Program-made: the position numbers and the translations under genes | NCBI RefSeq assembly: GCF_900143265.1 | Contig: NZ_FRDJ01000002.1 | Coordinates: forward strand, 1-64,000 | DNA from: Fervidobacterium gondwanense DSM 13020 | GTDB taxonomy: Bacteria > Thermotogota > Thermotogae > Thermotogales > Fervidobacteriaceae | DNA: 64,000 nucleotides | Direction: 5' to 3' | In this document: positions 28,797 to 30,078 of the stretch, in pieces | Layout of the letters: each line of letters opens with the position of its first letter | Position numbering within the stretch: position 1 is the first letter of the stretch | Notes under the pieces: model-generated | Database searches by the model: none | Seen by the model: the letters and a program-made list of their open reading frames with translations, nothing else | Told to the model about the DNA's origin: nothing

Positions 28797-28883
28797 TTCT
28801 TCCACCTCCGACGTTTTCATATTCTCAATCAATAAAGTGCGTGCTAAAATGATTATAACATCAAAATGGGGGTGTATCAAAGG

Positions 28884-29138
28884 GTCAACGCCCCACCACT
28901 GAAGTGGCGGGCTTGAAGCCCCCGTTGACTAGCCTCAGCTATGGTCCAAAGGACCATCAGGCTACGTTAGATGGGTCACGACACCATGGAATGCTGCTCA
29001 AGTTCCATGCTCTGTCGCCTATCGTTAAACAGTTCTGGCGGGTAGGAACAGTGCGGTAGGCACGACAAGCCCATCTAACATTGGCGATGAGCTCCTAACT
29101 CCGTAAGGAGGTTTACAGCAAAGGATGGGTGTATGCCC
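28884..29138 (-). mobile_element. orphan IS200/IS605-type end, omega-RNA-like structured element
   Basis: About 255 bases of dense secondary structure and no gene. On the far side (28884-28929) GTCAACG pairs with CGTTGAC and encloses two hairpins, CCACT/AGTGG and GGGCT/AGCCC, making a three-way junction. The motif read from the minus strand, with GGGCTTCAAGCCCGCCAC, is what I know from the right ends of IS605-family tnpB elements, which also encode the omega-RNA guide scaffold. Further hairpins are ATGGTCC/GGACCAT (28941-28957) inside GCCT/AGGC, a long-range pair GTTAGATGGG (28966-28975) with CCCATCTAAC (29070-29079), CTCC/GGAG near 29100, and GGGTG/CACCC near 29130. No tnpA or tnpB is present next to it, so it is a remnant, a non-autonomous derivative or a domesticated RNA. 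The identity is inference from motif resemblance. Confidence 0.55.
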
Positions 29139-29229
29139 ACCCTTATCTAAGACAAAAACATATTTGAAAGGAGGGAAGAGGCTCTCTCATTACAAGACTA
29201 AAGTTGCGTGTCTCCGAGAGCCAAGGACG

Positions 29230-30078
29230 ATGAAGTCTGGGATCGGACTTCTTTGGATGACTATCAGAATTGTACTGCTCGGATACGAAAGGATAGCTGG
29301 GAACAGAATTTCGAGAGGTTCTCCAACTTTCGTTGCGGCGTGGGGTTTTTTCTTCTTTTCGTTTCTCTCATTGTTCCCGTTTTTCAACTACATTACCAAA
29401 GAAATCTTGTTGCTTTCTCTGATAAGTGGTACTATTTATTCTGTTTCATTTTCCCTATATACATATGCGTTAGGTCATGAAGATGCTTCAGTGATAGCAC
29501 CGCTGTACAACCTCAACGCTGTTTTCTTAGTTGTTCTATCAGCTATCTTCCTTGGAGAACAATTTAGTTTGAAAAGACTTATAGGTGCACTGCTTATGAT
29601 TTATGGTGTTAGTTATCTAAAAAAGGGAGATAATATAGCGATCTCTTACAAGAATATTTTCAAAAGCAAGGGTGCGGTTGCTATGATATTGGCATCGAGC
29701 TTGATGGCAGTTGGAAGGATAATCGACAGGAAGATAACGATAGATGTCTCACCGATAGGGTATTCTGTTGGGATATATTTGATTATAAGTCTCTACATAC
29801 TACTTTACGGTCTCGTTAGAAAGAATAAACCAGTAGAGTATTTCAATCTCGTAAGAGAAAAATGGTTATACTTAATCCTCGGTGGAATATGTAATGCATA
29901 TTCTTACGTTGCGCTTCTCAAAGCCTTCAACTACTTCGGCGTGAGTGTAGCTGAGCCACTTTCGATGTTGTCAGTCTTTGTCACGATGTTCTTTGCAAAG
30001 GTTTTCTTAAAAGAAAAGATAGGAGTCAGAGTCATAGCTGCGGTTCTGCTGTTTTTTGGAAGTATCTTAATATATTAA
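29230..30078 (+). CDS. EamA/DMT-family transporter
   Basis: A 282-residue membrane protein with about nine or ten hydrophobic segments in two repeats, as in the drug/metabolite transporter EamA family. The second half carries FNYFGVSVAEPLSMLSVFVT and FLKEKIGVRVIAAVLLFFGS; the first carries IAPLYNLNAVFLVVLSAIFLG. Substrate unknown. The start is uncertain. ATG 29230 (MKSGIGLLWM) gives a normal first helix but only a weak AAGGACG ribosome site, while the frame is open back to ATG 29125 inside the transposon-like element. The first helix is more polar than usual (RIVLLGYERIAG), so insertion may have altered the 5' end. Confidence 0.8.
   Translation: MKSGIGLLWMTIRIVLLGYERIAGNRISRGSPTFVAAWGFFFFSFLSLFPFFNYITKEILLLSLISGTIYSVSFSLYTYALGHEDASVIAPLYNLNAVFLVVLSAIFLGEQFSLKRLIGALLMIYGVSYLKKGDNIAISYKNIFKSKGAVAMILASSLMAVGRIIDRKITIDVSPIGYSVGIYLIISLYILLYGLVRKNKPVEYFNLVREKWLYLILGGICNAYSYVALLKAFNYFGVSVAEPLSMLSVFVTMFFAKVFLKEKIGVRVIAAVLLFFGSILIY

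Follow-up and report, generated by a model that had tools for sequence, protein, structure and literature searches.

An iscB-deleted HEARO element with a complete omega-RNA at the eamA start codon of Fervidobacterium gondwanense

Results

The element and its surroundings

The window analysed here is a 64,000-nucleotide stretch of the genome of Fervidobacterium gondwanense DSM 13020. It contains a 346-bp element (28884 to 29229, plus strand), an iscB-deleted HEARO transposon, located between the divergently read chrA and an eamA-type transporter gene (29230 to 30078, plus strand; PF00892). IscB transposons are akin to the ancestor of Cas9. We delimited this element by the homology of its ends to two related copies and by a boundary rule taken from an empty site. 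No tnpB, iscB or tnpA gene lies beside it, as an earlier note on this DNA had remarked for tnpB and transposase genes. The eamA orthologues of the relatives G003 and G008 start at the corresponding place (N-termini MGLLWM and MGILWM, respectively). The element stands at the eamA start codon, and the gene is thus separated from the ribosome-binding-site-like sequence GGGGGTG; the insertion sits between the predicted ribosome-binding site and the start codon. The earlier note had proposed a comparison with relatives lacking the insertion, and the chrA-eamA regions of G001, G002, G003 and G008 indeed carry no HEARO element.

Two promoter-like sites were detected by scanning the region upstream of the element. 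The first, TTCTCA-17-TAAAAT with an extended -10 (28822 to 28850, plus strand), could drive both the RNA of the element and eamA. Its extended -10 motif TGCTAAAAT, which ends at 28850, is found again between the orthologous genes in G001 and G002. The second is a strong promoter-like site for the divergent chrA on the minus strand (28852 to 28880; TTGATA at 28880, a spacing of 17, TATAAT at 28852; 11 of 12). This site comes to within 4 bases of the element and shares positions with the predicted guide described below.

An omega-RNA of the HEARO family

The left part of the element (28884 to 29099, plus strand) is the scaffold of a HEARO RNA, with intact stems and compensatory changes. The covariance search suggested in the earlier note returned Rfam family RF02033 with 155.1 bits, against a gathering cut-off of 83 bits, and the match spans the full model (positions 1-211). 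Across the whole window, the remaining Rfam matches are two tRNAs only. When the pairs of the model are mapped on the window copy, 60 of the 66 are standard. In addition, a long-range helix of 10 bp joins 28966-28975 to 29070-29079 with perfect pairing. The plus strand of the 255 nucleotides originally singled out has a minimum free energy of -97.6 kcal/mol, versus -81.9 +/- 5.1 kcal/mol for shuffled sequences (z = -3.1), and none of 200 shuffles folded as low. A chance structure was rejected on the basis of this test and of the HEARO match, which bears out the structured RNA that the earlier note had read from its pairing. An RNA from the minus strand was also rejected, since its fold is weaker (z = -2.2) and it matches no family.

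The first description of HEARO, by Weinberg in 2009, reportedly included ORF-less copies and preferred insertion motifs already. IscB nucleases use HEARO RNA as their omega-RNA (PMC9755519). The omega-RNA (reRNA) of TnpB, which overlaps the 3' end of tnpB and has its guide at the 3' side, was considered and discarded, given the HEARO match and the close copies found 5' of iscB.

Origin by internal deletion

The genome encodes three HEARO copies. Besides the window copy there are two full-length elements, linked to iscB rather than to tnpB, which answers the earlier call for a search of other genomic copies. In L001 (G000:C6), the HEARO RNA is followed by a 438-aa IscB (NF040563, 352 bits) with RRXRR and HNH domains. 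Alignment to a solved IscB indicates that the motifs GID (RuvC-I), VE (RuvC-II), HH (HNH) and HxxDA (RuvC-III) are kept; we take these motifs to be catalytic, and the protein is apparently intact. L002 (G000:C1) represents the same element, but its iscB carries a frameshift.

The window element has about 235 bp on the left and about 70 bp on the right in common with L001 and L002. Identity is 90-92% across the left part and, compared with L002, 92% at the right end. This right end (29160 to 29229, plus strand; 64 of 70 positions as in L002) comprises the 3' end of iscB and the terminal hairpin GGCTCTC...GAGAGCC. About 1.2 kb of iscB is missing between 29120 and 29160, so that the window copy is not a complete IscB transposon; both of its ends are homologous to the full element and the inner gene is gone, as in MITEs. 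Sequence comparison thus identifies it as an internal-deletion derivative of an IscB (HEARO) element. The earlier note was right that the omega-RNA is an orphan, in an element that has IS605-type ends but lacks a neighbouring nuclease gene. However, it had placed the right boundary at 29138 and the EamA gene from 29139. That boundary falls inside the 346-bp derivative, since the terminal hairpin lies beyond it; the element extends to 29229 and the eamA start codon is at 29230.

The alignment with L001 and L002 also shows what remains of the ribosome-binding site and start region of iscB, AAGGAGG...ATG (29105 to 29127, plus strand). Homology of the start codon is tentative, because the 39-bp junction (29121-29159) gives no confident alignment with either copy. 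The remnant is in frame with eamA: a frame from 29125 to 30078 runs from it through the right end of the element and into eamA without a stop codon. This continuity may be due to chance, and EamA could carry a fused leader of 35 residues.

Insertion beside ATGA

The insertion site could be defined from L001, as the orthologues of its downstream gene in G001 and G002 are element-free. The empty site of G001, GAGGTGAAATC directly followed by ATGAAATTGGG, equals L001 with the element removed; therefore, insertion took place directly 5' of ATGA and without target duplication. A fixed insertion motif without duplication is the behaviour of IS200/IS605-type derivatives. In the window copy, the corresponding ATGA (29230 to 29233, plus strand) is the predicted target-adjacent and insertion-site motif and also the start codon of eamA.

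The tetranucleotide adjoins all 15 delimited related elements, which belong to the same subfamily; three of their host genomes are from this genus and a fourth is from a different genus of the same family. These right ends are not fully independent measurements, because each was set using its terminal hairpin together with the boundary of L001, but ATGA occurs at only 0.6% of the sites in the window. For roughly two thirds of the related elements, the adjoining ATG opens a substantial reading frame. The related DtIsrB has NTGA as its TAM and also cuts ATGA targets (PMC9581776).

G001 also harbours a second HEARO/IscB subfamily (L019, L021, L023, L025 and L028), whose IscB is approximately 35% identical. 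Here the right end is followed by the ribosome-binding-site-like sequence GGAGGTGA and then by a start codon, which suggests insertion upstream of the ribosome-binding site and not between it and the ATG.

Conservation of the RNA in the window and in other deleted copies

Relative to L001, four stem pairs of the window RNA carry substitutions in both partners and still pair (135/177, 138/174, 141/171 and 151/164, RNA numbering), and three of these two-sided changes are common to the window copy and L002. Compared with L002, the changed pairs remain paired in the window with two exceptions: one is a model pair of the variable hairpin, which in the window RNA forms a different, perfect 7-bp stem, and the other is non-standard in both copies. 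L002 lacks a stem base, and the stems of the window copy are better kept. Across 13 relatives, 87% of cells in the HEARO structure are paired and 18 pairs show two-sided changes; the covariation score (0.271 versus 0.136 in shuffles) indicates conserved pairing. Because its stems are intact, its changes are compensatory and relatives show covariation, the window omega-RNA looks functional in sequence.

Deletion derivatives of HEARO elements are frequent in the genus, and their RNA is not always spared. Full-length omega-RNAs were found in two iscB-deleted elements of G006, L010 (345 bp) and L016 (407 bp), and damaged ones in L018, L020 and L024 (G006) and in L026 and L028 (G001). Six of these elements (L010, L016, L018, L020, L024 and L026) measure 223-408 bp, and ATGA adjoins each of them. 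The window's genome holds one copy of the deleted version. Selection for RNA retention as a rule in deleted copies is unsupported in view of the five damaged ones. Given how frequent and how unevenly spared these derivatives are, we make no claim of selection for a function in trans; retention of the RNA may reflect chance in where the deletion fell.

Guide and transposase traces

Directly 5' of the scaffold lies the predicted 16-nt guide, GGGGGTGTATCAAAGG (28868 to 28883, plus strand), which also contains the original ribosome-binding site of eamA. Its length and place were inferred from OgeuIscB, whose omega-RNA begins with a guide of about 16-17 nt (PMC9640706). The 5' flank of the element is thus predicted to be a guide that matches the empty eamA site. 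The sequence of the relatives has diverged around the guide, which counts against this reading, and a same-species empty eamA allele was not seen. When a second target was sought, the sole near match was the start of a gene at G000:C8, which shares the ribosome-binding-site sequence and has no ATGA.

No intact Y1 transposase was found in the window's genome, where the sole Y1 trace is truncated; G001, a relative, encodes one that appears to be full-length. The truncated tnpA (a 78-aa frame) belongs to L007 (G000:C13:18738-21845), where an intact-looking gene for a 405-aa TnpB follows directly behind it. By its sequence, L007 is a decaying IS605-type element and the only Y1 trace of the genome.

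Discussion

In this study, we characterized an insertion at the start codon of eamA. We consider it highly probable that it is a MITE-like, internally deleted derivative of an IscB (HEARO) element, which has lost iscB and preserved both ends and a complete omega-RNA that would be usable in trans. The most likely partner of this RNA is the one intact IscB that the genome appears to encode. The earlier note had proposed mobilisation in trans or a guide RNA for a distant nuclease; this is probably right, but the cognate nuclease would be IscB and not TnpB.

The omega-RNA would be transcribed rightward within the 5' leader of eamA, so that its 5' guide would consist of flanking DNA; a transcript from the promoter-like site at 28850 would carry a 5' guide of about 25 nt. 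The RNA could then be bound in trans by the IscB of L001, and the complex would cut insertion-free eamA alleles, in which the guide sequence adjoins ATGA (empty allele, ATGAAG). Repair from the occupied copy would restore the insertion and favour retention of the element. The element itself would owe its movement to a Y1 transposase supplied in trans, and its present-day mobility is doubtful, as the genome has just the one truncated Y1 trace. Retention through RNA-guided cutting has been described for TnpB (PMC11870625).

The strongest competitor, to which we give a substantial chance that stays short of even, is a dead relic, in which a complete IscB element arrived at this site and iscB was deleted only afterwards; its RNA, spared by recency or luck, would now be functionless. 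The three copies of the genome do form a gradient of decay, from the intact L001 through the frameshifted L002 to the deleted window copy; moreover, other deleted copies have damaged RNAs, and no intact transposase is left. Against the relic, the stems of the RNA are better kept in the window copy than in L002, and the same genome encodes an apparently intact IscB. A domesticated regulator, in which eamA or the divergent chrA is under the control of the omega-RNA, alone or together with IscB, would account for the location in the eamA leader, the overlap of the chrA promoter-like site with the guide and the in-frame iscB remnant. We regard it as improbable: the insertion is absent from relatives and its position is therefore not conserved, the sole available IscB looks catalytically intact rather than dead, and insertion at start codons is a habit of the family that needs no regulatory role. 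Finally, a TnpB omega-RNA or an IS605 end unrelated to IscB is nearly inconceivable, despite the tnpB with truncated tnpA at G000:C13, in the face of a full-length HEARO match and close copies upstream of iscB.

Returning to the non-autonomous IscB derivative, its meaning may reach beyond this locus. Tentatively, and less probably than not, the deleted IscB elements of Fervidobacterium might be parasites of parasites, which supply their own guide RNA to a distant IscB, are retained in a homing-like manner without a nuclease gene and habitually settle at ATGA, between a ribosome-binding site and its start codon. With an apparently intact IscB, a decaying element and a nuclease-less element with a complete guide RNA in one genome, and a definable target, the system offers a compact natural test of omega-RNA action in trans. 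This IscB family of a thermophile inserts beside ATGA, often at start codons, and its preference leads to a prediction of the motif that a thermophilic IscB would target.

The element resembles the HEARO/IscB OMEGA system in its full-length RNA, in the 5' position of the guide and in having the ends of the iscB elements of its genome, and differs from it in that no iscB is attached. It shares with MITEs and non-autonomous IS200/IS605-type elements the inner deletion, the two ends, the lack of a transposase and a presumed transposition in trans; unlike MITEs, it carries a complete guide RNA, and its deleted version is present in only one copy in the genome. The insertion motif ATGA fits the NTGA TAM of DtIsrB, but DtIsrB is a nickase without HNH (PMC9581776), whereas the cognate nuclease here would be an HNH-bearing IscB. 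Standalone omega-RNAs that function with IscB are reported, with reference to Altae-Tran 2021, in PMC9581776. The window RNA is like them in that it lies apart from iscB while its genome encodes an IscB. It differs in that its activity is predicted and in that it is plainly the product of an internal deletion, with the two transposon ends preserved. Such RNAs are thus already known, and the window copy is a well-resolved further example.
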